From Citrus sinensis (taxonomy: Eukaryota; Streptophyta; Magnoliopsida; Sapindales; Rutaceae), in the NCBI RefSeq assembly GCF_022201045.2, contig NC_068564.1, positions 27,805,001 to 27,869,000 of the forward strand: a stretch of 64,000 bases of DNA, in the 5' to 3' direction. The notes under the pieces are model-generated. The model was given only the letters and a program-made list of their open reading frames with translations. It ran no database searches and was not told the origin of the DNA. A program made the position numbers and the translations under genes. This document shows, one piece after another, positions 5,748 through 29,115 of the stretch. Every line of letters begins with the position of its first letter. The first letter of the stretch is position 1.

Positions 5748-6701
5748 GATCCCTGGCTTGGTGACCAGACCGGTTGTGTTTGTCTGGTTCATGTATGATA
5801 GCTTAAATAAGTGACTGTGTTATGGAGTGTGGCAGTAGCCTAAATAAGCAAACTTCGTTTGCGCTGCTTTGCGTTTAGTCTAATTTGCCGCCTATGGGCG
5901 CTGTGATGTATGTAAGATATTCTGTTTGCTGATGAGCCTCTCTGTTGATGCTCATGGAATTTATTTCTGTATAATTATATGCCGCAGCAGCGGCAGCAGG
6001 TATTGTGGCTTGATGATCCGCTATTGCTTCTACAAACTTGCATCAGCAATGACGTACTGACGGAATGCAAACAGAGAATCTATCTTTCTTATTCTACATG
6101 TCCCTTTAAATAATGGAAAACTTTTTGACCTGCCACGTCAAAAATTCCCAGAGCTACCAAATAGGACGAAGAAAAAGAAAAATGAATAATAAAAAATTTA
6201 ATTAAAAAATTAGAAAAGAAAAGTGCTTCTGATGCTTCAACGGTGATCAATAATAATTATAAAATAATCTAGCGAATTGAGACGCCTCATGCACCAAACA
6301 TTGCGTCCACACCCAAATAGTTAATTGCCGTTCCATAAATATATAGCGTTTATTTGAAATTCTCAAAAAAAAAAAAAATTTGAAAGTGTCAACTTCCAAG
6401 TCAAGACTTCTTTTATTTATAATTTTGATATCATTATTTATTTGTTTCAAAATAGGACATGAAATGTATATTTAAATTTTGAAGATTAAATTAAGGGGAA
6501 AAAAACACTTTTTTACAATGGCAATTCTAAATAATACTATAGTTTTCAGTTAAATCATTAATTTTATAAAGACAATCGTTTTCAGAATCTGATGGAATCT
6601 GGAAAAGGGAAAATGGACTTGTGTTAAAATATTTATAAACTATGCCCTTATTTGTGATTTGTAAAAATGAGAGGGAGCCAGATATTATTGTCTCAAACCA
6701 T
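5748..6701. other. GGP 3' region and intergenic DNA
   Basis: The first 250-350 bases are T-rich and gene-like and are probably the 3' UTR. The rest is AT-rich intergenic sequence with no recognised gene. The duplicated block begins at about 6702. Confidence 0.5.
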
Positions 6702-6763
6702 ATCATGAGCTCCATCCATGTTCACGGTAGTTTCAAAACTTTTCGACAAAGGCTTGGAGACTC

Positions 6764-8285
6764 GGGTGTGCTTGGTACCATTGAAAATTTGTTGTTTTTT
6801 GTTTTATGAAAAGGAAAATGGAGAAAATTTGTTTGGTGAGCTTATTTTGGTAGAAAACTGTACAATGATTAAAAATAAAACAATTCCATTTTTTAATGTG
6901 TACAAAGAAAACAAGAGAACGCAATTATAACGTTCTCTGTTTTATTTCACTTTTACTCTCTGCCAAGAGTCCCAATATCTTAACTTTTATAACATAGTGT
7001 AACAAATTATGTGGGCCCATTTAATAAAGAAATAATTTAATAAATAAACTATTATAACAAATATTTAAAAATAATAGCAAGAGTTTATTCCTTAATTACT
7101 TAATATATTACCCATATTGTTCTAAATAAAAAGAAATATCATATAATTATTATACTAAATTATTACATTGTTCGACCAATATGCAGTTATTTAAAAACTA
7201 TTACAAACTTTCATATATTAATGAAAATATATCAATAATAAAGTTACATTCTAACAGCTAATATAAATAAATATATGATAATTATGAAATAATTTAAGAT
7301 TTTCTCAATTAATATTATATATTATCTTATAACTACAATTTATTTACATAATTAAAAGCTTTTAAGAAATTATTAAAATATCTTCGAACCTATATGTATT
7401 TATAATAATATATAATACATCATAATATAATAGCTAAATAGATAAATTATTTAATGATATAAAATATATATTTAAATTCATTGTATTATATTATTCTTTC
7501 ATAATAGTTTCATTAAATAGTTCTCTAATCTCTCTCTCTTTTTGTCTTTATTTTTTTAGACAAGCAATCAAACACTTTTTTCATCTTTTTATTTTCAAGT
7601 ATTGTTCTTAAAATAAAGGGTTATTATTATTTTACTACTTTAAAATTTTTCAAATATCAAATGACTACAACAAGTATTGTTTCATATCATTTTCTTACTA
7701 TATCTTTATAAAAATATCATTTTATTACTTTTCCGTTACAACAAATATCATTTTACTATTTTTCCGTTACAACCGTTAGTTAACTCGTTAGTCGACCAGT
7801 TAGTTGACTAACAAAATACTAATTTTACCCTTCATGATTAAAAATATAAGTTTCATTAAAAAAAATAATAAGACAAATTTATTTTGTAAATAAGCTTCAT
7901 TTTCATAATTCCAGCAAAAAGAATTATGTTGGTATTTTATATCCATTTTAATAAATATATTACAAATTTATTTTGTAAATAAGTTTCAAGTAATTTTTTT
8001 TAATCATAAAGGGTGAAATTGGTATTTTGTTAGTCAACTAACTGGTTAACTAACGGTTATAATGGAAAAGTAGTAAAATGATATTTTTATCAAGATATAG
8101 TAGGAAAATGATATGAGACAATACTTGTTGTAGTCATTTGATATTTGACAATTTTTGAAGTAATAAAATGATAATAACCCATAAATAAACTACCAAACAT
8201 GTTTTTATTTTTAACAAAAACTAATCATTCTTATTTTATAGAACAAATTCAAAAACACCATTTAAAAAATGATACCAAACGCACC
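6764..8285. mobile_element. DNA transposon with GGGTGYGYTTGGTA termini, in copy 1 only
   Basis: The left end reads GGGTGTGCTTGGTACCATT; the right end, reverse-complemented, reads GGTGCGTTTGGTATCATT. Copy 2 has the uninterrupted site near 23370, so the insertion is directly visible. The flanking duplication looks like 3 bases (CTC), though the right edge is ambiguous by a base. This is compatible with a PIF/Harbinger-like element, but the superfamily is not settled. No transposase is seen. A 563-base inverted-repeat element is nested inside. Confidence 0.65.
7618..8180. mobile_element. Nested foldback MITE with long inverted repeats
   Basis: The left arm, starting GGGTTATTAT, and the right arm, ending ATAATAACCC, are inverted copies for roughly 250 bases each. 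They share blocks such as the TGACTACAACAAGTATTG / CAATACTTGTTGTAGTCA pair. The arms are diverged by scattered substitutions and length changes. Flanks are AT-rich and a clean target duplication cannot be fixed. It has no coding capacity. Confidence 0.65.
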
Positions 8286-8302
8286 CTCAGCTTCCGCTCA
8301 CT
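8286..8302 (+). other. Putative end of the non-coding first exon of bL31m copy 1
   Basis: A good splice donor (ACT|GTGAGTTTT at 8303) is conserved in copy 2 as ACT|GTAAGTTTT (23385). It could splice to the acceptor at 14628 just before the bL31m ATG. If so, the transposon at 6764-8285 sits in the leader exon or core promoter. This is inference from donor quality and conservation only. Confidence 0.35.
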
Positions 8303-8482
8303 GTGAGTTTTCAAATCTCTCAACATACTTATGTGCAAATAATTGGGTTTCCATCTAGAACTTTACACCGTATGTTTGATTTACCTTTTGAATGTACGGA
8401 GTATGAATCAACCCTTGATTTGTTTTTAACCCATAATAATAATTATTATTATTTTTCGAGTTACCGGCAGATTAAGGGATCC

Positions 8483-9323: not shown

Positions 9324-9332
9324 AAGGGATCC

Positions 9333-10516: not shown

Positions 10517-10521
10517 ATAGT

Positions 10522-12264
10522 TGATAAGTGCATATTTTTCATATATTTTGCTATTAATTTCTCTATCTTTTTCTTGTTTTGGTCTTAAATATTCTAGTTA
10601 TTTTAGTTAATTTTTAATTTAGTAACTTATATTTTATTGTGTTAATTTTTATCTTAGTTTTATTTATTTTGTTATTTTAGGTATATTTTGGAATTAAAGA
10701 GAAATTAAATCAGAGCATTTAAGAAGAGATCTGCTTGAAGGAATTAGAAAAGGGAAATAATTAGTGATTTTTGAAAACCAAGAAAACCGAAGCCAACAAA
10801 ATTAATTCATGCATATTCAGAAGATTATGACCATCACGTGGAGATTAAAGAGGGAATTGAATTTAATTCAATTTGGCGACTTCATTTAATTGGAATCAAG
10901 AATCTTAAAGGGTAATAACATATGCAAGCATTAAAGTGGCTTTGGCTTGCTCATTGGTTAATATGGGAAGCAAATTGAACAATGAAGAAAAAGGAAGCCA
11001 AGCCATCACTTGAAAACAAAATTGGAAAACAAAGATTGCAAACCAAAAGTGGCCACGTGAAAGGAAAGAGAATAAAGCCTTTTGGCTTTAGGAAATCATT
11101 ATTGGCTTATTAATTGAAGCATGAGGTGGCAGTTTTGAGCTTGGAATTTAATTCTCTCCAGGCAAGGATTTAAACAAAGCCACAATTGAAGCATTATAAA
11201 TAGGATCAAGCGGAAGCAATAAAAAAAAAAAAGAAGAATTCGGGCAGCAAGAGACTTTGAGGGCAGGGCAAATCCAATTCGGCAAGAAGAAGAAAAAAAA
11301 TCAGCAGCCGGAATTCAATTGAAGAAAAAGGCAGCCGCTTGAATTAATTTCCATGACTGGTTTTATCAATTTTCTTATTCCCAATTCAATTATGTTAGGC
11401 TAAATTTTTATTTGGTTGAGGGTGAATTCAAAACCCTAAACATGCTATGCAATTAAATTTAAATTCTATCATTCAATTTATTTAATTGATATTGTTTATG
11501 TTCTTCTATAATTAATGTTCATAGTTTATTCTTGTTTGATTTAAGTGGCCAATTAGATAGAACTTGAATAAATTTTATTGCTAGATTAAAATTCTTGATC
11601 CGTAATTGTCTTGATATTTTAATCATTAGTAGCAAGCTGGAATTAATGATTTCAATTGGAGAACATAACCTAGGTTAAATAATCCGAGCTTGTGTGTTTA
11701 TTGCCTAGATCAATCTAATATCTTTCTTTGTTTAATGCTTCTATTATCTTAAATTTAAAGAGCTTATTTTAAATTATTTAATGGTTAGAGATTAGGTGAA
11801 GAGCTTATTTTACCTAACGACACACTAAGGAAAGATTGAGACTAACAGAGCTTATTGTTGTCTATGGTTGTTAGTTTCAATATAAATTGATAATAGAATT
11901 GATATATTATGTGCATGTTTGGTGGTGGCAAATGATCCTTTAACCAAAGTTTTCATCATTATTATTTCTTTCTCCTTTAATTAGAGTTTTTATTAAATTC
12001 TTGTTCGTAATTTTAATTTCTCTATTTCTTACTATTTAGTTAAAAATTCATAAACCCCTCTTTTATTTTTAATTGGTATTTTCTTTAGTTAGACTAATTT
12101 ATATTATTATTACTATTACTATTATTTTATTTTAAATCTTGCTTTGGAGTTAATAATAAATATAACTAGCATAGTCTCTGTGGGATCGATCCTTACTCGT
12201 TCTGTACTAATTATTTATATTAGTGGTAAGGTTTTAAATTTGGTGCACCTTAACGACACTACCA
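10522..12264 (+). mobile_element. Solo LTR (fossil), Ty3/gypsy-like
   Basis: This fossil begins TGATAAGTGCATATTTTTCA and ends CACTACCA, that is TG...CA. It is flanked by the 5-base duplication ATAGT at 10517-10521 and 12265-12269. Copy 2 carries the empty site near 24825. It is about 1743 bases with no internal region, so it is a solo LTR left by LTR-LTR recombination. The end sequence is typical of Ty3/gypsy LTRs in plants; the lineage is not certain. The insertion postdates the segmental duplication, or was never in copy 2. Confidence 0.75.
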
Positions 12265-12730
12265 ATAGTAAATATTTCTAAGAACATGGAGTGTGAATCA
12301 AACCCATATTTGAATTGAAATTGAGATACTGATGCAAGTTCTTCTCGTCTGAATCAGATTGATTCATATCTGAAAGACATTGACAATGAAATATTTAGTT
12401 CTTTCAGCTGTATGAGAACTGAAACATTTATCCAATCCAATTCTAAAAATTTCTAAGAACATAGAGTGTGAATCAAACCCGTGTTTGAATTGAAATTGAG
12501 ATACTGATGCAAGTTCTTCTCGTCTAAATTAGATTGATTCATATCTGAAAGACGTTGACAATGAAATATTTAGTTCTTTCAGCTGTATGTGAACTGAAAC
12601 ATTTATCCAATCCAATTCTAAAAATTTCTAAGAACATGGAGTGTGAATCAAACCCATGTTTGAATTGAAATTGAGATATTGATGCAAGTTCTTCTCGTCT
12701 AAATCAGATTGATTCATATCTGAAAGAGGT

Positions 12731-14190
12731 TGATGCGTAAATTAGCAAGCGCATTAGTCGGCACAAGTAATATAATGAAGAGTAGAGTGACATAGATTGT
12801 ATATCCTATTAATTACTAAAATTATTCTAACCATAATTTATTTGAATAACCGAATAAATGAATTTAGAATAAAAATTAAATAAAATAAAATAAAATAACT
12901 AAAAACTAAATAAAGATGCAGACAGTAATAGAAATCACCAAGAAATTAAGACATTAGAACATCCGATTTCACCATAATCAATCCAATTTAATTCTCCATC
13001 TATTCTATTAAAGTTTATTACCCATGTTGACAGTGAATTTCTCTAATCTATTTAATATCTTCTCTCGAGTAATATCAAAAATATCCTTACATATTAACCC
13101 ACTATATCTCTATATGAATTTCAATATGCAAAGATTCATTAAGTTATATGGAAACTCTTAGAAAAACTGCATGAATCACGTTGGCACATCTCTGTCTTTC
13201 GTTCAATTCATGACATCCATTACACAGAGCAAAAATACATAAATTTCCTCTCGGTCTCATTATGTATCCTCAAATCATTTAAATATTGGCCATATATTTA
13301 AAAGCATTAAGCACAATAATGAACTCTCAATCATGAAATAATAAACTAAAAATAATACAGATTTATGGAATTAAACTTTCATAGTTAGGCTGCATCATAG
13401 CCCTAGTAAAATAAATTAGTTCATAGAAATATAGAGAGAATCCATGAATTTAATTGGGAACATTCAAGTAAGATAATAGAAAAATAGAAAAGAAAGAGTA
13501 AACTCAGGAAGCTATCTCTCCAAATTGTTGCTCCCGGATTTGCAGCGGCAGCTTCACTTCTTTTTTTCTTTTCTTGCTCTCGGTTTTTTTCTCAGTTTCT
13601 CAATTTGTGCGGCTGCTCCCGTCCTCCTCCTCGGTTTTGCTTCTTTTTCATTTTATATTATTGCTCAACCCGCGAATCCTTAAATCAAAAGGATTTAAAA
13701 CAAGGATCCCTCTATGTTACATTCATGTAACTTACAACCCTCTCATATAAATAGTAAGTAGTGTGGCGTTCATTCACTATTTAATATTCATGTGAGAGGG
13801 TTGTAAGTTACATGAATGTAACTTGACATTAGCCTTAAAACAAAACAAGCCTAGCCTACTTTTTAAGTCCATGCACGTGAATCCCACGTGAATCAATGGT
13901 CAATGTCCTTTTTAACTATTCACGTGAGTTGTAGTGTTGTACACATAAAAAGCCAATTATTGCCCTTTAAACATCCTTTTTCTTCTTTTCTTTTATTCTT
14001 CACAAGTGACAATTATTTCCATAAATTCTAATTTATTTCGTTTTTAAGCTCCCTTTTATTTTAATATTCCCAATATTCCTACAATAATAAAATATAAAAA
14101 TAAAAATAAAAATTAATATAATAAAATATAATTTAACATAAAATTAAGTTAAATTTTTTTAAAAATAATAAATAAATTATGAGTACATCA
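12731..14190 (-). mobile_element. Second solo LTR (fossil), minus orientation, Ty3/gypsy-like
   Basis: On the minus strand this fossil begins TGATGTACTCATAATTT and ends TTACGCATCA (TG...CA). It splits the third 175-base unit. The flanking pentamers (GAGGT and AACGT) each differ by one base from the inferred target GACGT; an alternative reading gives a perfect GTTGA duplication, shifting edges by a few bases. It is about 1.46 kb with no internal coding region and is likely a solo LTR. It contains a small palindromic insertion. Confidence 0.6.
13716..13822. repeat. 107-bp hairpin inside the solo LTR
   Basis: The left arm, 13716-13748, starts GTTACATTCATGTAACTTAC and continues to ACCCTCTCAT. 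The right arm, 13790-13822, is its reverse complement with about two mismatches. About 40 bases separate the arms. Each arm also contains the smaller palindrome TTACATKAATGTAA. It may be a minimal MITE or part of the LTR family itself. Confidence 0.7.
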
Positions 14191-14639
14191 AACGTTGACA
14201 ATGAAATATTTAGTGCTTTCAACTGTATGCGAACTGAAACATTTATCCAATCCAATTCTATGAGTTATTGAGTACCTCTGATATGAGCCTGTCTTGTGTA
14301 GTTCCTATTGGTTTTGCCCCTTATTGAGAAAGAGCTAAAGCATTTCAAAAGAAAAACCTCCAGCTGTGCCATTTAACATCAATAGACTCCCTTCACACTG
14401 TTTTCTTCCTTAACATGGTTCACATTTAATGTGTTTAAGCAGTTTTTAATTTATTTTTTAGCAATATATTTAAATAAATAACATTGTTTTTATTTGTCTA
14501 ATAATTGATCACTGCATATACATTGGTAAAACAATTATCCTCATTCCATTGTTGTTTAGCTACAAAACTTTTTTAAAATCTGAATTTCTGTGTAAAGTTC
14601 TTTTCATAAGCTTCTTTTTAATTTGCAGATTTGGAGAAA

Positions 14640-14849
14640 ATGAAGAAAGGACTGCACCCTCAGATGCAATGGATATCCTATGTGACTCAGAGTGGCAGAC
14701 TGATGCATGTTATGATGACAAAAATACACAATGTTGGCAAAGTTTACCATTTTAGGGCCAGGCGCCAAATGGCTCAGAGTATTGGACAAGTTGCCAAGTT
14801 CAGGCGACGTTATGAACAGCAGGCGGACGCAGAAAACAATGAAAAATGA
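14640..14849 (+). CDS. Mitochondrial ribosomal protein bL31m, copy 1
   Basis: A 69-residue protein is encoded in one exon that begins after the acceptor TTTGCAG (14628), 11 bases before the ATG. It starts MKKGLHPQMQWISYVTQSGR and contains KIHNVGKVYHFRARRQMAQS and AKFRRRY. The KKGLHP start and the GxxxxFxRRY-type end resemble bacterial L31 (KKDIHP...RFNKRY). The zinc cysteines of bacterial L31 are absent, as in the plant mitochondrial form. Its role would be in the large mitoribosomal subunit. Only three base differences separate it from copy 2 over 210 bases. Upstream exons are non-coding; this copy's upstream region was hit by several transposons, so its expression is uncertain. Confidence 0.75.
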   Translation: MKKGLHPQMQWISYVTQSGRLMHVMMTKIHNVGKVYHFRARRQMAQSIGQVAKFRRRYEQQADAENNEK

Positions 14850-16131
14850 GGCATCTAGAACACATAGAGAAGTTAGGTATCTGTTGTTGGATTTGAATTG
14901 CTTTTAAGAAATAAGCATAAACATTGTGCTCTAAATTCTGAAGCAAAGTTTGTTTTCTGCTCCCTTAAGGCTTCAATGTTAAGTGCACATTTCCATTTTG
15001 ATGATTCGGGTGATGTCAACGATAGTTATAAAGTTTTTGTGCAATACCAATCGGCTAGTTTGATTGCATGTTTCATACTTACATTTGGGCTTGAGTTAGA
15101 ATTGGTGGCATAATCCTCCTTTGCGCTGTGGTGTTTCTAGCATTTGGCATTGTATATGCAAGCAAGGGTGCATTATTACATTTTAACCCCCATTGCTTTG
15201 CAAACTTTTGTTGTTTATGCTACGTAATGCAAAACATTAATTAGTCTTTGTATTCACCATCTCAAGTACGGGTGTGAATTCGTGTAATGGTGTCGTATTC
15301 GTATCATGTCTATTCATATCGCATAAAATTTAAGCAAAAACGGATATGACTCGATTTATTAATCATGTTAAAACATCAAAATAAGGATACGATCCGTTTA
15401 TTCATTGTGTTAATAGCGTTGACTTGTTAACATACTGAATACATAATTATTGAAAATCAATCTAAAAATAAAATATATGTCGATATTATTCTTAAAAATA
15501 GGTCATAAATAAATTAACATTACATAAATATGACATGAATAAATTTATAACATAATATGAGTATGACATAAAAAAATTAATTTAGCGTGTAGTATATATA
15601 ATTTAATTTTTTTTCAATAATATTAATTAATATTCATGTCATAAATATAATTATTTTTAAGTGGTCTACCACGAATACAATACGATATTTATCGTATATG
15701 TCATGTCAACGCATTTTTTAATAATATCAATATTTGAAAAAAAAAATCCTCTATCGTATGATCTCTGTTCCAGTTGTTTCCTCTCGGGGTTTATAAAAGT
15801 AATGGGCCTCAGGTTTGCCCCATAGGAGGACCAATTCTTTCCAAGAAAAAAGCCCGTCCAATTTTAATTTCAAGGGATTTGATTGATCGCTGCCGACTTT
15901 ATTTCTAATTTAGGATTTGTTACAGCTAAAGCACCTACATGCACGAAGCAAAGCATAAATCTCCTGCCTATCACGTAATTAGTAACAACACAAGACTGGA
16001 AATCATGAAGCTCCTGTAAGAAAAACATGAGGCTCCTTAATAGTAACTGAAAATCACTTTTCTTTTTCTATAATTTTTTTGTTGGTATAAATCTCATTTA
16101 GGACTCTTCTTACCTCTAATGCAAAGTTCAA
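14850..16131. other. bL31m 3' region and intergenic DNA
   Basis: Sequence up to 15025 is shared with copy 2, where it ends abruptly at the deletion junction. From about 15262 to 15720 there is a degenerate stretch with ATTCGTGT/GTGTCGTATTC-type motifs that resembles eroded hAT-family ends, but no inverted termini or duplications can be defined. No gene is seen. Confidence 0.45.
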
Positions 16132-16722
16132 ATGATCCGGCTGGCCAATGCCCTAATAGCAACCATCTTGCAACTCTCACTCGTTGTAATAGTAGAAGCG
16201 ACTTCAACACACAAAGTTGTGCAACAAAATGCCATTGGAAATGCCTCTACATCAACATCATCGCCATGGCTCAATAAAGTAGCAAACGGGGGCCGGCGGC
16301 CGAGGCCGTCCGGGTGCTGGAACAGGCAATGGATATGCAGACAAGGAGAAGCACCGGGGACCCAAATGAGATGCTGCAGAAACCGTTGCGTTGATGTGTT
16401 TTCTGATGTTAATAACTGTGGCTTATGTGGAATTCGATGTCGATTTTCTTGGCAATGTTGTCGTGGATTTTGTACCAACACAAATAGGGGCCCCTTTAAC
16501 TGTGGAAGATGTGGGAATAGATGCCCTTGGGGTGTCAGGTGCATTTATGGTATGTGTGGATATGCTCAGCCATGGCCAAGACCAAGGCCAAGGCCACGGC
16601 CGCAGCCTCCGCATCCTTCTCAACCTAAACCACCTAGTCCTTGCCCGCCAAGGGGTGACCAGCCACCTAAACCACCTAGGCCTTGGCCGCCACGGGGTGA
16701 TCAGCCACCTCCTATGGGTTGA
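16132..16722 (+). CDS. STIG1-family secreted cysteine-rich protein with proline-rich tail
   Basis: An intronless 196-residue frame. Residues 1-23 form a signal peptide (MIRLANALIATILQLSLVVI then VEA). Residues about 62-145 form the Stig1 domain with 16 cysteines in the family pattern, including CCRNRC, NNCGLCGIRC, CCRGFC and NCGRCGNRC. STIG1 of stigma exudate is an apoplastic peptide affecting pollen tubes and exudate secretion; other members act in flowers and roots. Unusually, about 50 residues follow the last domain cysteine: an arginine-proline run (PRPRPRPRPQPP), then two imperfect copies of a PP(P)xPxPCPPRGDQPP-type unit. Most Stig1 proteins I know end soon after the cysteines. The tail may bind cell-wall pectin, which is inference. 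Confidence 0.9.
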   Translation: MIRLANALIATILQLSLVVIVEATSTHKVVQQNAIGNASTSTSSPWLNKVANGGRRPRPSGCWNRQWICRQGEAPGTQMRCCRNRCVDVFSDVNNCGLCGIRCRFSWQCCRGFCTNTNRGPFNCGRCGNRCPWGVRCIYGMCGYAQPWPRPRPRPRPQPPHPSQPKPPSPCPPRGDQPPKPPRPWPPRGDQPPPMG

Positions 16723-17509
16723 AGTTCATCATATTTCTAGCTGGCTATATGGTTCTCATTTACAGTGAGCTATTAGCTGTATCATTGCCTCTTAGTTAAT
16801 GTCTGTTTTGAGTCTTGCTGTTGGTGAAACTAGTCGTATATTTCTCTCACTTTATGTTTAGAGAGCGATCTTGTGTTTCAACTTTCATAAATACTAGTAT
16901 TTTGGTGTTTCACTTTCATGCAATGCGAAGGTTAATTCAGTTTGTTTATAATTGGCTTTCCATGCATGGCGTAGACGCAAGCATACACGCATATAGGGTT
17001 TCCTCCATTGCATGAATAATCCCTCTATTTCCCTCCAAGTTTGATTCACGCTCTAGTTTAAATTCATTGTGGATTGCAGATATAGATTTCGTTTCATTTA
17101 TCAAATTATCCTCTGCATTTTATTTTAACTCCTGCTAGCTCCACAAAACTTGCCCATTTATACATTACTTGGGGTAATTTTTATTTTTTTTATTTTAAAG
17201 AATTATGCAACCAAGTCATTAAACTGCCCCATAAATTTAAACATCATTAGGAAGCATCATAAAGACATAAACTAAGGGATATTGTTATTGTACGAATACA
17301 GTTTTAGGTTTAAAAATAAAATAAAAAAAGGGGCAACCAACTGCATCAACTTTGCAAAATGATACATTAGTTTTCTCTCCCAGGTTCGTAGTTTCAGAAT
17401 GGAAAAATAGGTCGGAATTACTTGTACTTCTCTGCAAGTAAATGGAACTCAAGTTAGGTCAAGTATCCAGCAGTTGAGGCAAGACTTGTTCGATTGCAGT
17501 CGCCTATTA
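16723..17509. other. STIG1-like 3' region and convergent intergenic
   Basis: This lies between the plus-strand STIG1-like gene and the minus-strand CNX5 stop. It should contain both 3' UTRs. The small frame at 16815 is not supported. Confidence 0.5.
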
Positions 17510-20500
17510 TTAATAGACAGGAAAACTCGGATCCACATCATTTGCCCAAGACTCCAGGCCTCCAATAATATCTCTTGCAGAAGTGAAACCCAGCTTGTGA
17601 AGAGCTTGCACAGCTCTCTGTGAATCATTGCCTCTTCTGCATACTACATACAGGTTAGAACCTGAACTCGCATTTGATCCTCTGTGCTCTTCCTTTTCTT
17701 TCATTGCCGATGAAATCTCAGGCAACCTGGATTCCAAATCTGAGAGAGGGATGTTTATGGAGTTTGGAAGAGAAACAATCCTGAAGTGATGTGCTGGCCT
17801 GACATCAACTAATATATGAGCTTCTCCATTAACAACTTTTTCTTTGTACTCCTTGCTGCTTATTCTAGAATCTGCTGAGAGCAAATTCAATTTCAAGGGA
17901 AGCTGTATATAATTGGAATGTCAACGTATTAGATTTTAGCGATATAATAATATTGGCAGTTAAATTAGCAGAATGCAATACATACCGTAGACAGAGGTGA
18001 CTGAGTGAACTTTTCATAATCAAAATTTCTGAAGTGGTCTTGGGTAAATGTTGAATTTTCTCCACAAGCTTCACATTGTGATGATCTGCCTCTAATCTTG
18101 ACCTAAGCAATGATATAGAGACAAATATCGGCATGTAAATTAAATGTCAAGAAGGTTCAGTTTAACTATTACTTGAACAAAATGCGTTTAAGGTATTCAC
18201 ATCAGAAAGACAGAAACCATACAAATCTAAATCCATTTTGGTTTCACCAAATATGGTATATGCTAAATACAATTACTGAAGCTTGTAAATTGTTAAGAAT
18301 ATTAATCATGCTTTCCAAACTAGAGTTGACCAGTAACAAACTTTGAAAAATAAGTAAAATGAACATACAATTCGGATTCGTGCTGACAATGCATCAAACA
18401 GGAGCATCCGTCCTGACAGTGGTTCACCAACAGCACTTGCAACCTTAATGGCCTCTAAGGCTTGGAGACAGCCAATGATTCCAGGAACTGAAAACGAAAA
18501 ATTAAAAGCATTAGTATTTCATAAAGCAAACGGCATTTCAAGAGCTTGAAAATTGGGCATTATGGTATTGAAATATAACTTCGGCTGTACCAAATGAATT
18601 ACTAACCTACCTACTCCAAGGACTCCACTATCAGCGCATCTTTGGCATGCTGTAGTTGGTGGTGGGGTTGGAAATAGGCAACGATAGCAAGGACCTCCAT
18701 TGTAATTGTAAACTGTGAGCTACAGTGCAAATTTTAACAATGCAGTTATGCTAGAAGCTCAGGTACTATACATGAGCCAAAACTAAAATCTCTACAAAAT
18801 ATCTTTTATATGTTTCTAGCTAGAAGAATAGCACAAAACTGCGGCTCAATTGCATACCTGCCCTTCCAGTCCCAGTGCAGCACCTGATACCAGAGGCTGC
18901 AGGCATAAACATGGATTAATAATTTTTCAAAGCAGGCAATGGCAGAATATCATATGTTTCTCACATGTTGAAACACATAAGACATTGCCTCAGCTGCAAG
19001 CCTCATTTAAAACGAAAAGCAGAAATGTAAACACAGTACACATGTTAGCCCAGTAACCTCGTTATCTGAAATTAAAATTGAATCTCTTAACAATTTTAAA
19101 TGCATTTAGGGATGAACAGAATCTATGCGAACCAAAATATAACTTCATTGAACTCCAATTGCCCCACTTCAAAACATTATTTTGAAGTCAATTTATACAT
19201 CCTTACACAATCATGCAAGACGATCAGCAAGTCACAGAGTCAACTTACCTTTCCCAACACCACACAACAATCACTGATCATGTAACGGCTTGGAGCATTA
19301 TCGGTTGCATCTACAACTATCTCATATCTAAAATGTTACAACAGTTACGGAACTCTCGAGATTCCAGATGTACTGACCCCAGTGGTAAATGGAGGGAAAT
19401 TTTATTTCACAGAGAGAATTATTCATTCAACTATTTCCGAAGGATACTGACTCAGTATTTCCAAAGCATTGGATGTGCGTAAAGCTTCTCTGTGCTCAAT
19501 AATGTGAACAGTGGAGTTGATCCTGGAACACACATTCATATTAGATAAAATCAAGACAAAGCCAATACAACAGAATAAGCCCCACCAAACTCTCAAGTGA
19601 AGACAAAAATGAGTTCAGCCTTCAGAATAAGGTGAGCTAATGCAAAAAATGCAGAAAAGTAACATACGAACGACAAGTAGCAGCAGCAGATTTCACTTTT
19701 GATTGACCAATATATGGTTCGGTGTGGATAACCTGAAATATGCAAATAAAAAAGAAACTAATAAAAGAATATTTATAATCACAATCACAATCACCATAAG
19801 TAATTTTTCTTTTCTTTCTTTCTTTTTTTTTTTTGGGAAAATTCGAGATGACATTGTAGAAAGAGAGATGCAGAAAATAAAGCAATGTAGATATAATTTT
19901 TATAAGCATTGATCATCTGCCTACATGTGCCTGTTACAGGGGGAGTTAAAATGTTTTTGATGGTGAGAAAGACACTGAAGTGACACGCGTGTATGTATTC
20001 AAAGTCATAAGTAATAGCATCAGGTCAATGGTGATAGCAAATTGACAGAATTCTACAGATCAACAATAGTAGCAGGAATAGTGGAATACCATATATCATA
20101 GAAACAGTAAACACGAATTTCCTATTTTTACCTGCCTGTGCATGTTGTTAAGCTCAACTACATCATGATCCACAATACCCAATCGCCCTGAAGAACAATT
20201 CAACAAAAAAGTCAAGCTAATGAAACATTCAAAAGACATATATAAAACAGCAGCCATTTGATAATCACATAAACAAACCATTCAGCATAAATCAAAGTGG
20301 ATGCAGTGGGGGGCTTTTTGCTCAGCAAAAGCCCTTCGGATAGTAAATAAGGCGTTGATATCGCCTATTCAAAAAAAATTTGATTGAAAAGAAACACTTG
20401 CAAGAAGAGCTACTTAGTAAAAACATTACCAAACACAATTTAAACCATATTCAGTGAACTCTTAAATCATCTTACCAACACCACAAGCTGCAAGATACAG

Positions 20501-20920
20501 CAGAGCCGGCGAACCCAAGCCCCCAGCTCCAATCACTAAAATCGAAGACTTGAGGAGATTCGATTGCCCTACAACAAGAAATAAATCCAAAATTTCAAAT
20601 TTAATTCAATAAGATGCTAAAGGAATGAAATTCTGGAAACAATTGATTTAAAAAGTCAAACCTTCAACACCGAAAGAAGGAAGCAAGAGGTGGCGACTGT
20701 AACGGTAAATCATATCCGGTGATAGTCCATAATCAACGGCAGAGCTTGGACGATAAGAACCATTAGAAACGGTGTCGGTTTGGGGCTGACTAACAGTCGT
20801 GTCACGAAGCTGAGCTTCAAGAGCGGAGATTCGATAATCAATATCACTCTTAGCAGCCTTTAAGGTTTCAATTTCGCCGAGGACTCTTGCCACGTCAGTG
20901 CTACCTCCGTTTGTCTCCAT
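17510..20920 (-). CDS. CNX5: Adenylyltransferase/sulfurtransferase CNX5 (MOCS3/UBA4 type)
   Basis: Eleven exons on the minus strand: 20920-20662, 20568-20476, 20187-20132, 19732-19668, 19522-19448, 19327-19249, 18896-18858, 18719-18611, 18487-18369, 18102-17986 and 17902-17510. Introns are GT-AG and the product is 467 residues, close to the Arabidopsis protein. The N-terminal coiled region ([14 protein letters not shown]) precedes an E1-like domain with [19 protein letters not shown] and [13 protein letters not shown]. Paired CYRC / CQRC and QCEAC cysteines give zinc and catalytic sites. A C-terminal rhodanese domain has active-site CRRGNDSQ (Cys about 425). It adenylates and sulfurates the small molybdopterin-synthase subunit and Urm1-like proteins, serving Moco synthesis and tRNA thiolation in the cytosol. 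An in-frame start 34 codons upstream is possible, but METNGG matches the family start. Confidence 0.95.
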
Positions 20921-21379
20921 ATTCTGAACAACCGAAGACGTCCAGTGAAGACTGTGAAGTGGGGTCAGAGGTGAAGCGGCAATCAGAGGAACCCTAATTA
21001 GACAGAAAAGTGACAAATTCAAAGAATGATACCGGTGAGCTGGAAACAGGAGAAAAAAAAAACCTTAACACATCCTAATTTCAGACTCCTAACGCAAGAT
21101 GGAAGAAAAAGACGAAATTACCCTTGAAGGAGATTCCAGACGTGTTCGATGTAATTGCTCTCACCAAATCACAACCCGCCAGGGATGATCCCTATCGTGA
21201 GACCAAAAACGGAATGGCAAATGAATAAACAGCCACGTGTCTCGTTGGCTCTCGGACTGATATGTCTATAAATATATCAATCCGAAGTCTGATCATTCCC
21301 TCTCGGCAAAGTTAAACCATCCATCCGATCAGTCGCAAGGGGCGTGGCTCACTCACAAATCCAATATTAACAATAAACG
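20921..21379. promoter_or_regulatory. Divergent promoter between CNX5 and the unknown small gene
   Basis: The two start codons face away from each other with 459 bases between them. A G-box/ABRE-like CCACGTGT lies at 21233-21240 and a TATA box TATAAATA at 21267-21274, 106 bases before the plus-strand ATG. Copy 2 retains the G-box-like motif (26233-26240) but not this TATA box. Confidence 0.6.
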
Positions 21380-21912
21380 ATGTCGTTAGTGTCGCAAATG
21401 AGAGGCTTCATCTTCCTTTACTTCAAATCTTCACGACCATCTTCTATCAAGCCTTTGACGGCATATCTCTACAAGCCCTTCAAGGTACGCGCATACGCAT
21501 AGAACATAAATAATCGCAGTTGATTAGTTAACTATAAGATTAATTTTTGATCTTATTGTTTTTTTTTTTTTTTTTTTTTTTGGGTTCGTGTCTATTACGT
21601 TATTTTGACATAATTAAATAAATGAATACTGTGTCGTATCAGAGGTACGGTAGCGAAGGAGCAAGCAATAAAGATCAAAATATTAGTCTTCACCCCGAGA
21701 GGCATGGGAGAGCGCCGTCAATAGCTGAAGAGTTCGAGAGAGTTGCAGAGGAAAAGCTTCGAGCTGCGGGTCAAGGGGTTGGGAGTCAGACCAAGGACAA
21801 GGTTTACGATGGAGCCGAAGAATCCACCCGCGGTGGCTCCAATGTTGATTCTGTCAAAAACAGATTCGAGGAGCACGAACAAGGAGCTGACTACCGCGGG
21901 AAGGGAGATTGA
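21380..21912 (+). CDS. Small plant protein of unknown function, copy 1
   Basis: Two exons, 21380-21484 and 21643-21912, give 124 residues. The first exon encodes a basic, hydrophobic N-terminus (MSLVSQMRGFIFLYFKSSRP) that could be a mitochondrial presequence or membrane anchor. The second is hydrophilic and charged: FERVAEEKLRAAGQG, then a glycine- and glutamate-rich end (KNRFEEHEQGADYRGKGD). The 11-residue-like amphipathic stretch recalls LEA_4 proteins, but this is weak. Donor AAG|GTACGC and acceptor TATCAG join in frame in both copies, and both reading frames are intact, so I consider it a real gene. I do not recognise a named family. It shares a divergent promoter with CNX5. Confidence 0.75.
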
Positions 21913-22859
21913 GATGTTTAATAATTAGTTTCAGATTCTGTGATTTTGAATAAGTTGATGAAGTATGTGCAATTCATCAAAGATGTAAAATTCTTCTCCG
22001 TTTAGTTTCTTGTTTTGATGCTGAGTTTTGGTATGATCAAGTTGATGACATTGGGATAAAAATACAGTTCTATAATATTTATGTGGGTTCATAAAATTCA
22101 TTCGTATTGGCTTTATAATATATCTGTGATTGAATCATAAAAATTGTTGCAAAGAAATAACCGAAGCTTCACGAATGTAATTTTCGAACAAGCATTTTAT
22201 TATCAGAGTAATTTATGACAAATTTCTAAAACATGCCATGCTGTCTATATCGTCCTCATTCCTTTCCAAATGTGTAAAAGGATGAGAACCAAAAAATAGA
22301 ATAAAATATGAACGTACACAATTGACTCCAGCACAAATCACAACTAGCGCGGGCCTATTAAAAAGTCCTGATAAATTTTGGCTCCGTGTCGGTGGTGCTT
22401 GAATAAATTATATTTTACTTCGTAAGAACCCGGGCCTAATAAACTCAGCAGTAGAGCGGAAAGAGCCCAATATGAACGGCAATAAGTTGGGTCTTTTTCC
22501 ATCTCTCAAAATTCTTTATAAAACTCATTTCTTATTAAAATTACATGAACACCCGAAAATTAATTAATTATTTTTTATTTTAAATGCAAATTTGATTAAT
22601 ATATTCTTTCAACAAAATTTCTATTTCATGATTTTTTATTGATGTTTTAAAATTATAGCTAAAAAATATTTTGTAAAGAATATTATAAGAATTTTGAGTT
22701 ATGGAATTATAAGTAATATAAAAAAATATGTATTTTATAATAAATAATTAAAAAAATTTAACGTGAAATTTGGTAAAAATATGGTTACTTTTTTTTTTTA
22801 TAAAAATATTTTATAAATTAAACTGAGATTTTTTTTAAAGGGTGTTAAAATTCCGCCCA
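21913..22859. other. 3' region of the unknown gene and AT-rich intergenic
   Basis: This is shared with 26927-27904 of copy 2 with many small differences. No gene is seen. Sequence from about 22840 (TTCCGCCCAATGGGAG) onward matches the uL30m promoter. Confidence 0.55.
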
Positions 22860-23312
22860 ATGGGAGTACATGCTTGAGCCCAACAAAGGCCCACTAAAAA
22901 CATACGGCAGTCAACAATCAAAACCTGGCTTGGCTTCTTCTCCTACTCCTGCTTCGTTTCCTCTCAATTTTTCTCACTTATCTAACAAACCGCCATCAAT
23001 CAGCGGCCGCCGCCGCAAGCCGCTGGCAGCAGTCACTTGGTTGCCCAAATCGCCGGTTTTCTCACTCTTCGCAGTAAGTTTCTTTTATCTGAAATTAAAA
23101 TTTACTCTCTGAAAGTTATTATCATTTTGAATTTTTATCGGCTTTAGCACCATTAATTGTATCGCTATCATTACTGAAAATATCGAAGAGCAGAGAAAAA
23201 CATTTGCTTTTATATCTGATTGAAAGCTTCAATTTGTGGTGACAATTCTTTTTCTTACTGTATGTGATGTAGGGGACCTGCGTTTTGATTTTGTTTTCTA
23301 TTGGAACTTACT
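22860..23312 (+). promoter_or_regulatory. Duplicate uL30m promoter, leader exon and part of its leader intron, now upstream of bL31m copy 2
   Basis: This matches 27900-28357 closely, including a GGCCGCCGCCGCAAGCCGCT core and the splice donor GCA|GTAAGTTT (exon end 23073). At the native locus this leader splices to uL30m. Here the sequence breaks at 23312 and continues into bL31m copy 2, whose exon acceptor is at 25362. A chimeric uL30m-leader/bL31m transcript is therefore possible, either directly (2.3-kb intron) or through the donor at 23385. A frame at 22870-23112 crosses the donor and is leader, not protein. Confidence 0.65.
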
Positions 23313-23384
23313 ATTATGAGCTCCATGTTCGCAGTAGTTTAAAAACTTTTCGACAAAGGCTTCGAAACTCAGTTCTCGGTCACT

Positions 23385-25362
23385 GTAAGTTTTCAACTCT
23401 CTCAATATACTGATGCGCAAATAATTGGGTTTCCATCTCGAACTTTACACGGTATGTTTGATTTACCTTTTGAATCTCATGATGGCCATTTTATTCTCTA
23501 CAGAATTTTTGTTTTCTAAAAACTTGAGTATGAATGTACGGAGTACGAATCAACCCTTGATTTGTTTTTCACCCAGAATAATTATTATTATTATTATTAT
23601 TTTTTTTTTTTTTTGAGTTACTAGCAGATAAAGGGGTCCTTGTCTCTGACATTTGAATATTTTTGATAGATGGGCTAGTGAATTTTGGTTATTACTAATG
23701 TGTTTGATGAAATACCTGTGAGAAATTAGTCTTATCATGTAACACATCTACAATCTGTTTGGCCAGGAAGATGTTTGCAGGGAGGGAAATAGTGAGGAAT
23801 TTTATAATTTTTGAGACCCGGTAATAGCATAACCTTTTCTTAACTGAGGACTATTGCTGGAACCTACAGCATAGGATTGAAATTTTTATTGCAAAATTGA
23901 GTATGAAGATTGAATTGATTAGAAAACTTTTTACATTGGACTTTAGGATTTAGAGGCATGCCAGTGAGTAGATGTTTCCAATTTCAATGTTTTGAAATTT
24001 TAGTGAAGAATTTGTGAGCAAATAGACCAGATGCCAATACTAATATGTTGGAAAGTTCTTGTATTAATGTGTCACTATAAAATCATCTGCCATGTATATA
24101 CTCTTGATAGGCCAGTTTGGATATCTTCTGTATTAACCTCAAGATTGATTTATGCATTAAAAATAGATTAGATATCATAGGTTTGGATGTATTCCATTGT
24201 TTTGTTATGAGAATTGAGGTTTACCTGTTGGCTGAATGTACAATTGTTGACTGTAGCTATCTACTTTGGATAAGCAAAGGTAAACCTAATTTTCATAAAA
24301 TCCACGCGTGTCAGTTAGAATGAGACTGGATGGAACAAACATTTCATGAAGCATCTTAAAATTATTCACCAAGAAATAAACATAATATTGTCTTGATGCA
24401 TCTTAGTAGTTATTTATTTTTCTGCTACATGCTTACATGTGCCGCCACAGATCACGTGGAAACTCTTACTCAAAATCTCACTTATCAGATTCCGTTGTGG
24501 AAGACACCATTTTTTCTGAAGAATTGGCCATGCTCTATCTAATCCATTCATAATATCATGAAAAATGGATACAAATTTTTGACTGCTACTTAGTACCAGT
24601 AATAGGTCTGAAAAAGTATTTAAAAATATCAAATTTAGATATTTGTACCCTGTCGAAGAAAGGAACCACGGCATATATGTTTGGAATCGATTCCATTTTG
24701 AGAGAGTTGAAAAAGCACTGTTTCGTTGAAAGGTTCTAGACATATGCCATTTCTTAACGCATTTCTTTAGGCAAAGAGTCAAAGACTCCATTTTTCCTCT
24801 TTCTCTTTTCGGATGGTAAATATTTCTTAGAATGTAGTGTGAATCAAACCCATATTTGAATTGAAATTGAGATACTGACGCAAGTTCTTCTTGTCTAAAA
24901 TAGATCGATTCATATCCGAAAGAAGTTGACAATGAAATATTTAGTGCTTTCAGCCGAATGTGAACTGAAACATTTATCCAATCCAATTCTATGGGTTATT
25001 GAGTACCTCTGATATGAGCCTATGTCTTGTGTAGTTCCTATTGTTTTTGCCCCTTTTTGAGAAAGTGCTAAAGCATTTCAAAAGAAAAACCTCCAGCTGT
25101 GCCATTTAACATCAATAGACTCCCTTCACACTGTTTTCTTCTTTAACATGGTTCACATTTAATGTGTTTCAGCAGTTTTTAATTTATTTTTTAGCAATAT
25201 ATTTAAATAAATAACATTGTGTTTATTTATCTAATAATTGATCACTGCATATACATTGGTAAAACAATTATCCTCAATCCATTGTTGTTTAGCTACAAAA
25301 CTTTTTTTAAAATCTGAATTTCTGTTTAAAGTTCTTTTCATAAGCTTCTTTCTAATTTGCAG
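23385..25362 (+). other. Probable leader intron of bL31m copy 2
   Basis: Bounded by donor GTAAGT at 23385 and acceptor TTTGCAG ending 25362. It preserves the state before the insertions seen in copy 1. A 190-codon antisense frame (24414-24986) lies inside and is judged fortuitous. T-runs and (ATT)n occur near 23580-23612. Confidence 0.5.
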
Positions 25363-25373
25363 ATTTGGAGAAA

Positions 25374-25583
25374 ATGAAGAAAGGACTGCACCCTCAGATG
25401 CAATGGATATCCTATGTGACTCAGAGTGGCAGACTGATGCATGTTATGATGACAAAAATACACAATGTTGGCAAAGTTTACCATTTTAGGGCCAGGCGCC
25501 AAATGGCTCAGAGTATTGGACAAGTTGCCAAGTTCAGGCGACGTTATGAACAGCAGTTGGATGCAGAAAACAATGAAAAATGA
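25374..25583 (+). CDS. Mitochondrial ribosomal protein bL31m, copy 2
   Basis: A 69-residue protein, identical to copy 1 except one position near the end (EQQLDAENNEK versus EQQADAENNEK). The acceptor, the 11-base leader before the ATG, and the reading frame are intact. The near absence of coding change, against visibly more differences in flanking DNA, suggests constraint on both copies or recent gene conversion. Its native promoter is cut at 23313; the nearest upstream promoter is the duplicated uL30m one. This makes it the better candidate for normal expression, since copy 1's upstream region is heavily invaded. That preference is inference. Confidence 0.75.
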   Translation: MKKGLHPQMQWISYVTQSGRLMHVMMTKIHNVGKVYHFRARRQMAQSIGQVAKFRRRYEQQLDAENNEK

Positions 25584-25758
25584 GGCATCTAGAACACATA
25601 GAGAAGTCAGTTATGTGTTGCTGGATTTGAATTCCTTTTAAGAAATAAGCATGAACATTGTGCTCTAAATTCTGAAGCGAAGTTTGTTTTTGTACTCCCT
25701 TGAGGCTTCAATATTAAGTACACATTTCCATTTTGATGATTCTAGTGATGTCAACGAT

Positions 25759-25914
25759 AGAAACGGTGTCGTTTTGGGGCTGAGTAACATTCGTCTCGCG
25801 AAGCTGTGCTTCAAGAGCCGAGATCCGGTTCTCAATGTCACTCTTAGCAGCCTTTAAGGTTTCAATTTCGCCGAGGACTTTTGCTACGTCAGCATTACCT
25901 CCGTTTGTCACCAT
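25759..25914 (-). pseudogene. CNX5 exon-1 remnant, 3'-truncated
   Basis: On the minus strand the ATG at 25914 starts [20 protein letters not shown], matching [20 protein letters not shown] of CNX5. Similarity stops after about 52 codons at the deletion junction, and all downstream exons are absent. The frame continues for about 15 unrelated codons into the bL31m 3' region before a stop. Around ten of 50 residues differ, far more than in bL31m, so it appears free of constraint. The N-terminal coiled segment alone cannot provide CNX5 activity. Confidence 0.85.
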
Positions 25915-26392
25915 ATTCTGAACAACCGGAGACGTCCAGCGAAGACTGTGAAGTGGAGTAAGAGGGAATGCGGCAATCAGAGGAACCATAATTATACCGA
26001 AAAGTGACAAATTCGAAGAATGATACCGTTGAACTGGAAACATGAAAAAAATAACCTTAACACCTCCTAATTTCAGACTCCTAACGCAATGATGGGGGGA
26101 AAAACAGAAAGACGAAATTACCCTTGAAGGAGATTCCAGACGTGTGCAATGTAATTGCTCTCACCAAATCACAACCCGCCAGGGTTGATCCCTTGTTTCC
26201 GAACGAAAATGAAATGGCAAATGCATAAACAGCCACGTGTCTGTTCACTCTCGGACTGATCTGAACTGCGCGGGTCCCCATGAAATATCCATAATCCATC
26301 CAAAGTCTCATCCTTTTCTTTGGGCAAAGTTAAACCATCCATCCGATCAGTCGCAAGGGGCGTACGCACAAATCCAATACTAACAATAAACG

Positions 26393-26926
26393 ATGTCGTT
26401 AGTGTCGCAAATGAGAGGCTTCATCTTCCTTTACTTCAAATCTTCACGACCGTCTTCTAGCAAGCCTCTGACGGCATATCTCTACAAGCCCTTCAAGGTA
26501 CGCACACACGCATGGAACATAAATGATCGCAGTTGATTAGTTAACGATCAGATTAATTTTTGATCTTATTGTTATTATTTTTTTTTTTTTTTGGGTTCGT
26601 GTCTATTACGTTATTTTGACATAATTAAATAAATGAATATTGTGTCATATCAGAGGTACGGTAGCGAAGGAGCAAGCAATAAAGATCAAAATATAAGTAG
26701 TCTTCATCCTGAGAGGCATGGGAGAGCGCCGTCAATAGCTGAAGAGTTCGAGAGAGTTGCAGAGGAAAAGCTTCGAGCTGCGGGTCAAGGTGTTGCAAGT
26801 CAGGCGAAGGACAAGGTTTATGATGGAGCCGAAGAATCCACCCGCGGTGGCTCCAATGTTGATTCTGTCAAAAACAGATTCGAGGGGCATGAACAAGGAG
26901 CTGATTACCGCGGGAGGGGAGATTGA
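26393..26926 (+). CDS. Small plant protein of unknown function, copy 2
   Basis: Exons 26393-26497 and 26654-26926 give 125 residues, one longer than copy 1 (an extra serine in NISSLHPERHG). Other differences are few: I/S in the first exon, and G/A, T/A, E/G and K/R in the second. Splice sites are conserved. Its upstream region keeps the G-box-like CCACGTGT (26233-26240), but the segment that holds the TATA box in copy 1 is replaced by unrelated sequence near 26262-26300. It may thus be expressed differently. See copy 1 for protein features. Confidence 0.7.
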
Positions 26927-27899
26927 GATGTTTAATAATTAGTTTCAGATTCTGTGATTTTGAATAAGTTGATGGAGTATGTGCAAGTCATCAAAAACGT
27001 AAAAGTCTTCTCTATTTCGTTTCTTGTTTTGATGGTGAGTTTTGGTATGATCAAGTTGATGACATTGGGATAAAATTACGGTTTTGTAATGTATTTGTGG
27101 GTTCATTAATTCATATTGGCTTTATAATATATCTGTGATTGCATCTTAAAAATTGTTGCAAAGAAATAACTGAAGCTATATGAATGTAATTTTCGAACAA
27201 GCGTTATTATCAGAGTAATTTTTGACAAATTTTCTAAAGCATGAAATGCTGATGCTGTCTACATCATCATCCGGATTCCTGATCAAATATGGAAAAGGAT
27301 GAGAACCAAAAAATAGAATAAAATATGAACGCACAACTTTGACTCCAGCACTAATCACAACTAACGCGGGCCCTGTGGAAAGCTTCTCTCTCGGTCTCTG
27401 GTGCTTGAATAAATAAATTATATTGGGCCTAATTTACGCAGCCGTACAGCAGAAAGAGCCCAATACGAATGGCAATGAGTTGGTCTTTCCCAATCTCTCA
27501 AAAATTCTTTGTAAGACTCTTTTCTTATTAAAATTACTTAAACTTCTTTACAAAAAATATTACTTAAATGCCTAAAAATTAATTAATTTTATTTTAAATA
27601 TTTAAATAAAATATTCTTTCAACAACATTTCTACGCCTATTCCATTTCATAATTTTTATTTGTATTTTAAAATTATAATTGAAAAATAATGTTTAAAAGA
27701 AAATTGTAAGAATTTTGAGTTATGGAAATATAAATAATATAACAAAATAGTAATTAATGATTTTATAATTTATATGTATTTGAATAATTAAAGAATTTTG
27801 AGGTGAAATTTGGTAAAAATATGGTTACTTTTTTTATAAATTAAACTGAAATTTTTTAGAAAATAAAAGTTATTAGGATTTTATAGGGTGTTAAAAATC
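26927..27899. other. 3' region of unknown gene copy 2 and intergenic
   Basis: AT-rich, collinear with 21913-22859, with several small insertions and deletions between copies. No gene is seen. Confidence 0.5.
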
Positions 27900-28562
27900 C
27901 GCCCAATGGGGAGTGCATGCTTCAGCCCAAGAAAGGCCCACTAAAAACATACAGCAGTCAACAAACAAAACCTCGCTCGGCTTCTTCACTTATTCCTGCT
28001 TCGTTTCTTCTCAATTTTTCTCACTTATCTAACAAACCGCCATCAATCAGCGGCCGCCGCCGCAAGCCGCTCGTAGCAGTCACTTGGTTGCCCAAATCGC
28101 CGGTTTTCTCACTTTTCGCAGTAAGTTTTTTTCTGAAAAATTAAAATTTACTCTCTGAAAGTTATTATCATTTTGAATTTTTATCGGCTTAGCACCCTTA
28201 ATTGTATCGCTATCATTACTGAAAATATCAAACAACAGAGAAAAACATTTTCTTTTATATCTGATTAAAAGCTTCAATTTGTGGTGACATTTCTTTTACT
28301 TACTGTATGTGACGTAGGGGACCTGCGTTTTGATTTTGTTTTCTATTGGAACTTACTTGACAATCCCAGAGCAATTTTTACAAACTTTCAAGATTATTAA
28401 TTTGGTTTCATTGCATTTTGTGAATAAGTAAAATCAGAAACAACAGTAAATTCCTAGCTAATGTTTGTTCAGACATGTAGTTGGCTTCGCTTACATTCTA
28501 TGTGTTCTTATGTTTTTTTTTTTTCGTTTTTATGTTAACGTTCTGTCGATTTCGTATCTCTA
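27900..28562 (+). promoter_or_regulatory. Native uL30m promoter, leader exon and leader intron
   Basis: The leader exon ends at 28120 (GCA|GTAAGTTT). The intron runs 28121-28562 and ends CTCTAG just 27 bases before the ATG. The part up to 28357 is duplicated at 22860-23312; the part from 28358 is unique. A leader intron is common in plant ribosomal-protein genes and often supports expression, which is general knowledge. Confidence 0.6.
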
Positions 28563-28589: not shown

Positions 28590-29115
28590 ATGAATGCTTT
28601 CAAAGCTTTTAAAGCCTGTGTTCCAATTGAATGGAGTCCAAACTTGTATATAACCCTTGTGAGGGGGATGCCAGGCACGAGAAGGCTTCACAGACGCACT
28701 TTGGAGGCATTACGTCTCCGGAAATGTAACCGCACTGTTATGCGCTGGAACACTCCCACCGTCCGAGGAATGCTTCAGCAGGTATCAGGAAAAGCTCAAA
28801 GTGAATTTTTTTTTTTAATACATTTTCGCGCAAGGGTCTTTCTTTTATATTTGGGTTCTTTAGCTGCTTTCAAGTCAGCAGGTATCAGAAAAGGCTCAAA
28901 ATGGTTATTTTTCTTTTTAACATTTTCGTGCAAGTTTCTCTGTTTTTGGGTTTATTTGGTGCTTACAAATACCATATATATAGGTAAAAAGGTTGGTTGT
29001 AATTGAGACAGAAGAGATGTATAAGGCTCGCAAAGAGAAGTTGGCCAACCACCGAGCTCTACGCCCCCCCATGGTCATTAATCATCTCCCAAGTTCTACA
29101 ACTCAATCCACTTAG
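28590..29115 (+). CDS. Mitochondrial ribosomal protein uL30m
   Basis: Two coding exons, 28590-28781 and 28984-29115, give 107 residues, the usual length for plant uL30m. The protein begins MNAFKAFKACVPIEWSPNLY; ITLVRGMPGTRRLHRRTLEA and LRLRKCNRTVMRWNTPTVRG match the L30 core (short basic beta-alpha-beta fold, with the conserved VKRLVVIETEEMY after the junction). It belongs to the large mitoribosomal subunit. The intron holds a partial copy of the exon-intron border with a second donor-like site. Together with bL31m and CNX5 it follows the order seen in Arabidopsis. Confidence 0.9.
28776..28935 (+). repeat. Tandem duplication across the uL30m splice donor
   Basis: TCAGCAGGTATCAGGAAAAG at the true donor (about 28775) recurs as TCAGCAGGTATCAGAAAAGG near 28877, followed in both by a CTCAAA, a T-run and ACATTTTCGYGCAAG. 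The repeat lies inside the intron and supplies a second plausible GT donor about 102 bases downstream. Use of it would add codons to the mRNA. Confidence 0.75.

Follow-up and report, generated by a model that had tools for sequence, protein, structure and literature searches.

A tandem duplication in the genome of Citrus sinensis has placed a copy of the 5' end of uL30m, with its promoter region, in front of a second gene for bL31m. We analysed a stretch of 64,000 nucleotides (the window; C9:27805001-27869000 of a 299.7-Mb genome in 11 contigs), in which the promoter swap is real at the level of the DNA, and judging from motifs and splice-like signals the captured uL30m promoter probably drives this second bL31m gene (copy 2). 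For the events as a whole, the best explanation, which we favour with reasonable confidence, comprises a duplication, capture of the promoter, splicing from 23073 to 25363 and a later transposon insertion. A block of bL31m, CNX5, a small gene and uL30m would have been duplicated in tandem. With one breakpoint in the leader exon of bL31m and the other in uL30m intron 1, the event would have given a second bL31m gene beginning with the uL30m promoter and a non-coding leader. In transcripts from the copied promoter, splicing would remove both the junction and the stub of the old bL31m leader, leaving a short leader devoid of upstream ATGs, from which the bL31m protein would need nothing. A transposon insertion into the leader exon of the native gene (copy 1) would have followed the duplication. 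If true, this would be a clean example from nature in which a housekeeping gene traded its regulation for that of a complex partner, with its protein unchanged, before a transposon struck the native copy; the pairing within one complex and the later insertion are the features worth following. It raises the question whether duplicated subunit genes tolerate a change of promoter better when the new promoter is that of a gene for the same complex.

Tandem duplication and its junction

Self-comparison of the window revealed one large head-to-tail duplication, with copy 1 at about 6701-23312 and copy 2 at 23313-28357. The paired segments were 6701-8497 (interrupted) and 23312-23655, 9324-10526 and 23631-24822, 14194-15025 and 24925-25760, and 20764-23312 and 25758-28357, with homology reaching from about 6701 in bL31m and up to 28357 in uL30m. 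Both breakpoints are interior points of genes, namely the leader exon of bL31m and intron 1 of uL30m, and the arrangement is that of a chimeric gene formed by tandem duplication, as the 5' part of uL30m lies in the same orientation ahead of the 3' part of bL31m, whose frame is intact. In copy 1, bL31m is followed by CNX5 (minus strand), by a small gene of two exons (21379-21912) and by the uL30m 5' end; in copy 2, bL31m is followed by a stump of CNX5 (its 5' part), by the small gene and by uL30m, the last of which extends past the duplicated part. Most of CNX5 is missing from copy 2, where the counterpart of about 15.02-20.76 kb of copy 1 (about 5.7 kb) is absent. Since the native flank of bL31m is found in the left copy and the body of uL30m in the right one, the chimeric 5' end belongs to copy 2 of bL31m.

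A sequence-only reading had placed a junction between a copied uL30m 5' end and bL31m copy 2 at 23312/23313, and self-comparison bore this out. The same reading took the promoter, leader exon and donor of uL30m to be copied upstream of bL31m copy 2; a genome search with the 453 bases of 22860-23312 led to one further match in the 299.7 Mb, which lies at the complete uL30m gene and covers positions 3-453 (94% identical). As this gene is the sole other match, the resemblance is no chance match. The uL30m promoter region was found at two places, itself included, and bL31m genes likewise at two, by protein and by DNA search alike, with all such repeat counts being lower bounds. The native upstream DNA of bL31m, said to be severed about 70 bases ahead of its own donor, ends 72 bases before it by our count. 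All features are collected in Table 1.

Table 1. Features of the duplicated region (positions within the window)
Feature	Position	Strand	Basis or remark
Left part of native bL31m leader exon, copy 1	6701..6763	+	left edge of duplicated unit; aligns to 23312-23371
Transposon in copy 1 leader exon	6764..8286	.	ends GGGTGTGCTTGGTA / inverted GGGTGCGTTTGGTA; nested element at about 7617-8182
Right 16 bases of native bL31m leader exon, copy 1	8287..8302	+	donor GTGAGT next
bL31m coding sequence, copy 1	14640..14849	+	exon from 14629; 69-aa frame; one of the two genome places
Two site II motifs in copied uL30m promoter	22877..22893	-	TGGGCT 22877-22882, TGGGCC 22888-22893; both also at 27924, 27935
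Copied uL30m leader exon (putative)	22904..23073	+	aligned to 27951-28120; no ATG; start assumed at 22904; donor after 23073
Copied start of uL30m intron 1	23074..23312	+	self-comparison, alignment
Tandem-duplication junction	23312/23313	.	one overlap base (T, 23312) fits both sides
Last 72 bases of bL31m leader exon, copy 2	23313..23384	+	own donor GTAAGT next; two ATGs inside
bL31m leader intron, copy 2	23385..25362	+	without the insertions found in copy 1
bL31m coding sequence, copy 2	25374..25583	+	exon from 25363; matches 6xyw_AA (E 4.3e-34), 9evs_1c (E 6.7e-32)
CNX5 5' fragment in copy 2	25758..26054	-	self-comparison; rhodanese/ThiF pieces in copy 1 gene
Promoter and putative leader exon of complete uL30m gene	27884..28120	+	inferred from motifs, donor, acceptor
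uL30m coding exons and intervening intron	28590..29115	+	first coding exon found at one genome place, itself (lower bound)

Identity of the genes and the proposed ancestral block

Both genes encode mitoribosomal large-subunit proteins, as the earlier reading had it, since their products match chains of solved mitoribosomes. For bL31m, two matches were obtained at the threshold, the L31 chains 6xyw_AA and 9evs_1c, and the score with Pfam Ribosomal_L31 was 24 bits, under the cut-off of 27. uL30m matched 9gyt_1b, 9evs_1b and 6xyw_Az (At5g55140) with E values of 1.5e-46 to 1.5e-45, and PF00327 with 62.7 bits. The chain name At5g55140 in 6xyw supports a plant-mitoribosome origin of the matched entries; the others we also take to be plant mitoribosomes. 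Both copies have an open bL31m frame of 69 residues, with one difference between them, in agreement with the intact frame already noted for copy 2.

A coding N-terminal extension of bL31m was considered and rejected, as a search with the extended reading gave two matches whose alignments started at MKKG or one residue earlier, and as the corresponding ATG in the leader stub of copy 2 meets an early stop. The leader remnant of copy 1 is in frame with exon 2 if the transposon is skipped. Chain 9evs_1c (135 aa) carries 59 residues before MKKG and the 76-aa chain of 6xyw none (PDB 9evs/9gyt, 6xyw); the annotation of start sites may be inconsistent among plant bL31m.

The name CNX5 rests on rhodanese and ThiF pieces in the gene of copy 1 and on its location between the two ribosomal genes. 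As far as the excerpted sources go, bL31m appears in a published table under AT5G55125 and AT1G27435, and uL30m under AT5G55140 (PMC6953067); CNX5 is AT5G55130 (PMC5791162). The adjoining gene numbers indicate that bL31m, CNX5 and uL30m are linked in Arabidopsis too, which supports a single bL31m-CNX5-uL30m block as the ancestral state.

Divergence of the copies

Non-coding parts differ between the copies by 3.4 to 21.6%, most of them by 6-12% (pairwise counts, assigned to neither copy), and the latter range points to an old structure, unlike a segregating variant. Such divergence exceeds what is usual between haplotypes, so that an assembly artefact in which two haplotypes were set end to end is very improbable; the copies differ in addition by transposons and by the about 5.7 kb absent from one of them, and the junction unites interior points of two different genes.

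The coding sequence of bL31m shows substitutions at 3 of 210 positions, all within codons 62-63, compared to 147 of 1966 in the non-coding parts of the gene (Fisher p 0.0003), and is weakly more alike than its nearest flanks (p 0.037). If one copy had evolved neutrally, three or fewer coding changes would be expected with a probability of 0.26 at the local rate and of 0.05 and 0.02 at two wider rates; with both copies neutral, the values drop to 0.01, 0.0001 and 0.00001, which makes two neutral copies unlikely at each of the three rates. The 3' end of the leader intron is also unusually alike, with 15/435 differences (3.4%) in the last 435 bases versus 104/1192 (8.7%) in the middle intron (p 0.00015). 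This suggests that gene conversion has likely acted in the 3' part of bL31m, and the identity of the coding sequences is therefore a weaker sign of selection on both copies.

The alike intron end would also be consistent with transcription of copy 2 from a promoter near exon 2, within the old intron and common to both copies, which would leave captured promoter and transposon of little import. Gene conversion accounts for the similarity equally well, however, and no TGGGCY occurs in 23677-27423. Moreover, the acceptor-like sites ahead of exon 2 are among the best in the window (percentiles 99.8 and 99.9 in the two copies, from assumed weights), so that this stretch resembles the end of an intron, and we consider such an internal promoter unlikely.

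The copied uL30m promoter and leader

The presence of a leader exon in uL30m at all is suggested by motifs, donor and acceptor. Plant ribosomal protein promoters carry GCCCA/TGGGCC motifs, which peak around -60 to -110, and mitoribosomal ones telo-boxes, according to the parts of two surveys available to us (PMC1832190, PMC3212954). Like the site II promoters of these sources, which have GCCCA/TGGGCY upstream of the leader, both uL30m promoters have two TGGGCY near the leader, here within 17 bases; unlike the telo-box-bearing mitoribosomal promoters, neither 22400-23073 nor 27400-28120 contains AAACCCT. The octamer AGGCCCAC, found at 22887-22894 of the copied promoter, is among those given for Arabidopsis and rice promoters alike in the same excerpted survey (PMC1832190). 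Single motifs carry little meaning, because the 37 TGGGCY of the window (29.84 expected) were equalled or exceeded in 10 of 100 shuffles, whereas two within 100 bases of the copied promoter would arise by chance with a probability of about 0.001 at the shuffled window rate. From the motifs, transcription from the copied promoter would begin about 75 bases further on, near 22960, and 22904 was used as a cautious earlier start.

The two leader copies align without gaps across 22921-23072. Between copied and complete uL30m gene, 15 of 233 bases are substituted in promoter and leader and 14 of 238 in the adjoining intron (Fisher p 0.85); as the former diverged as much as the latter, the copied promoter shows no sign of selection. 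Farther upstream the divergence is greater, with 56/470 and 90/417 differences, the latter in an AT-rich stretch that is hard to align.

A frame spanning the leader (22870-23073 and 27917-28120) begins with an ATG at 22870, or at 27917 for the complete uL30m gene; after splicing, its stop would overlap the start codon, as ATGA, in bL31m copy 2 and uL30m alike. A conserved peptide was rejected, as 10 of the 13 differences between the copies fall in residue-changing codons. Being upstream of the site II motifs, this ATG probably lies ahead of the start site; an earlier start of transcription than assumed would turn the frame into an upstream ORF of both genes, and the zero upstream ATGs given below would no longer apply.

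Predicted splicing of the chimeric leader

The donor after 23073 reads GCA|GTAAGT, and the identical nine bases follow 28120 in the complete uL30m gene. At bL31m copy 2, the acceptor reads TAATTTGCAG|ATTT. Both signals are located as previously claimed, with 25362, formerly given for the acceptor, being the last intron base. Joined from 23073 to 25363, the leader would comprise about 180 bases with 0 upstream ATGs (start assumed at 22904); if the own donor of bL31m at 23384 were used, four upstream ATGs would be retained.

Scores and percentiles of donors and acceptors derive from assumed weights. The acceptor at 25363 scores highest between 23074 and 25400 (5.28; percentile 99.8 of 3161 AGs), with 23628 (5.16) near behind. 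The donors at 23073 (1.44) and 23384 (1.27) score alike, and five donor-like sites in the intron outscore both, the best being 23451 (4.56) and 24279 (3.89), so the choice of splice sites is not settled by sequence alone. Of the chimeric leader proposed before, the ordered elements on one strand stand, namely motifs, ATG-free leader, donor, junction, acceptor and frame, and the use of 23073 over rivals that score alike or higher is the part that we infer.

The native gene and its transposon

An inverted-repeat transposon of 1.5 kb splits the leader exon of copy 1 at 6763/8287, 16 bases ahead of the donor, and copy 2, where the sequence is uninterrupted, represents the empty site. Its outer part has matches at eight other places in the genome, and its inner 0.57 kb at 30 or more (87 rows, with 40 of 278 candidates scored and several places yielding two rows). 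Five relatives were fetched, all of which match the outer element, whole or partly, without the inner insert, and against these five the ends and the nested insert were defined. TC flanks the element on both sides here, and TTA at one relative. The intron of copy 1 bears two further insertions, at about 8489-9320 and 10526-14194. The former (8489-9317, about 0.8 kb) is bounded by inverted ends at 8489-8664 and 9128-9317. In copy 1 the intron also carries three head-to-tail repeats of 175 bases (12262-12786), with 94% and 73% identity to the first, and copy 2 has this sequence once (24808-24982).

The position of the transposon in the leader of copy 1 strengthens promoter capture beyond the earlier reading, as it leaves copy 2 with the cleaner 5' end, and the swap could for this reason matter now. 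Read through the transposon, the copy 1 leader contains 23 upstream ATGs from 6701 and 26 from 6600, next to a split 16 bases from a donor (GTGAGT) that scores below GTAAGT of copy 2 (-0.25 versus 1.27, assumed weights), and the native flank 5760-6763 has no TGGGCY. These points stand against a copy 1 that still works, by starting in or beyond the transposon or by splicing round it, beside a silent or weak copy 2. Such a division is improbable in our view, even though copy 1, too, has an intact and almost unchanged frame, transcription beginning in 8287-8302 would produce a leader with 0 upstream ATGs, and donor-like sites occur ahead of and at the transposon edge (6726, 6765). Returning to expression from the captured promoter, copy 2 may carry much of the bL31m supply. 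A stronger version, in which the native gene was crippled by the insertion after the duplication, bL31m now comes mainly from the chimeric gene and two large-subunit proteins are under two copies of one promoter, can be put forward tentatively, and we would sooner doubt than accept it. That a swap between genes of the same subunit might be compatible in dosage, as suggested earlier, is plausible.

Comparison with known systems

The mode of origin is already known from Drosophila yakuba, where, in the excerpted text of PMC5460883, tandem duplications with breakpoints in two genes join a 5' end, promoter and UTR to other sequence, and where shuffled structures often alter expression and whole-gene duplications rarely do. 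The citrus gene shares with these chimeras a 5' end and promoter joined by breakpoints in two genes. It differs, as far as that excerpt goes, in that the donated part is non-coding and the bL31m protein thus unchanged, in that donor and recipient belong to one ribosomal subunit, in that the copies are about 6-12% diverged in most non-coding parts and hence old, not segregating, and in that its expression is predicted here from the DNA.

Plant mitochondrial genes that moved to the nucleus acquire 5' parts (presequence, regulatory) from other nuclear genes, sometimes from genes for mitochondrial proteins (PMC8317393, excerpted). Like them, bL31m, a gene for a mitochondrial protein, gained the 5' part of another nuclear gene; in contrast to what the excerpt describes, both bL31m copies lie within one nuclear tandem duplication without an organelle move at that step, and no targeting sequence was gained, as the frame begins in exon 2. 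The captured 5' part is thus not one on a newly moved sequence. Among the matches listed, in part excerpts, for literature on tandem-duplication chimeras, plant promoter capture and the Arabidopsis bL31m genes, the present case was not described.

Other genes of the block

A STIG1-like frame (16132-16722; PF04885, 85.5 bits) lies between bL31m copy 1 and CNX5 and has no counterpart in copy 2. The CNX5 stump (25714-26054, minus strand) still has the gene's 5' end, and its antisense transcription could proceed towards the 3' end of bL31m copy 2. Here the CNX5 N-terminus runs on into unrelated codons within a frame of 109 aa (26043-25714). The small two-exon gene is present at 21379-21912 and 26393-26926, with open frames of about 125 aa and no Pfam match, and between the copies 15 of 378 exon positions differ, compared to about 12% in the flanks.
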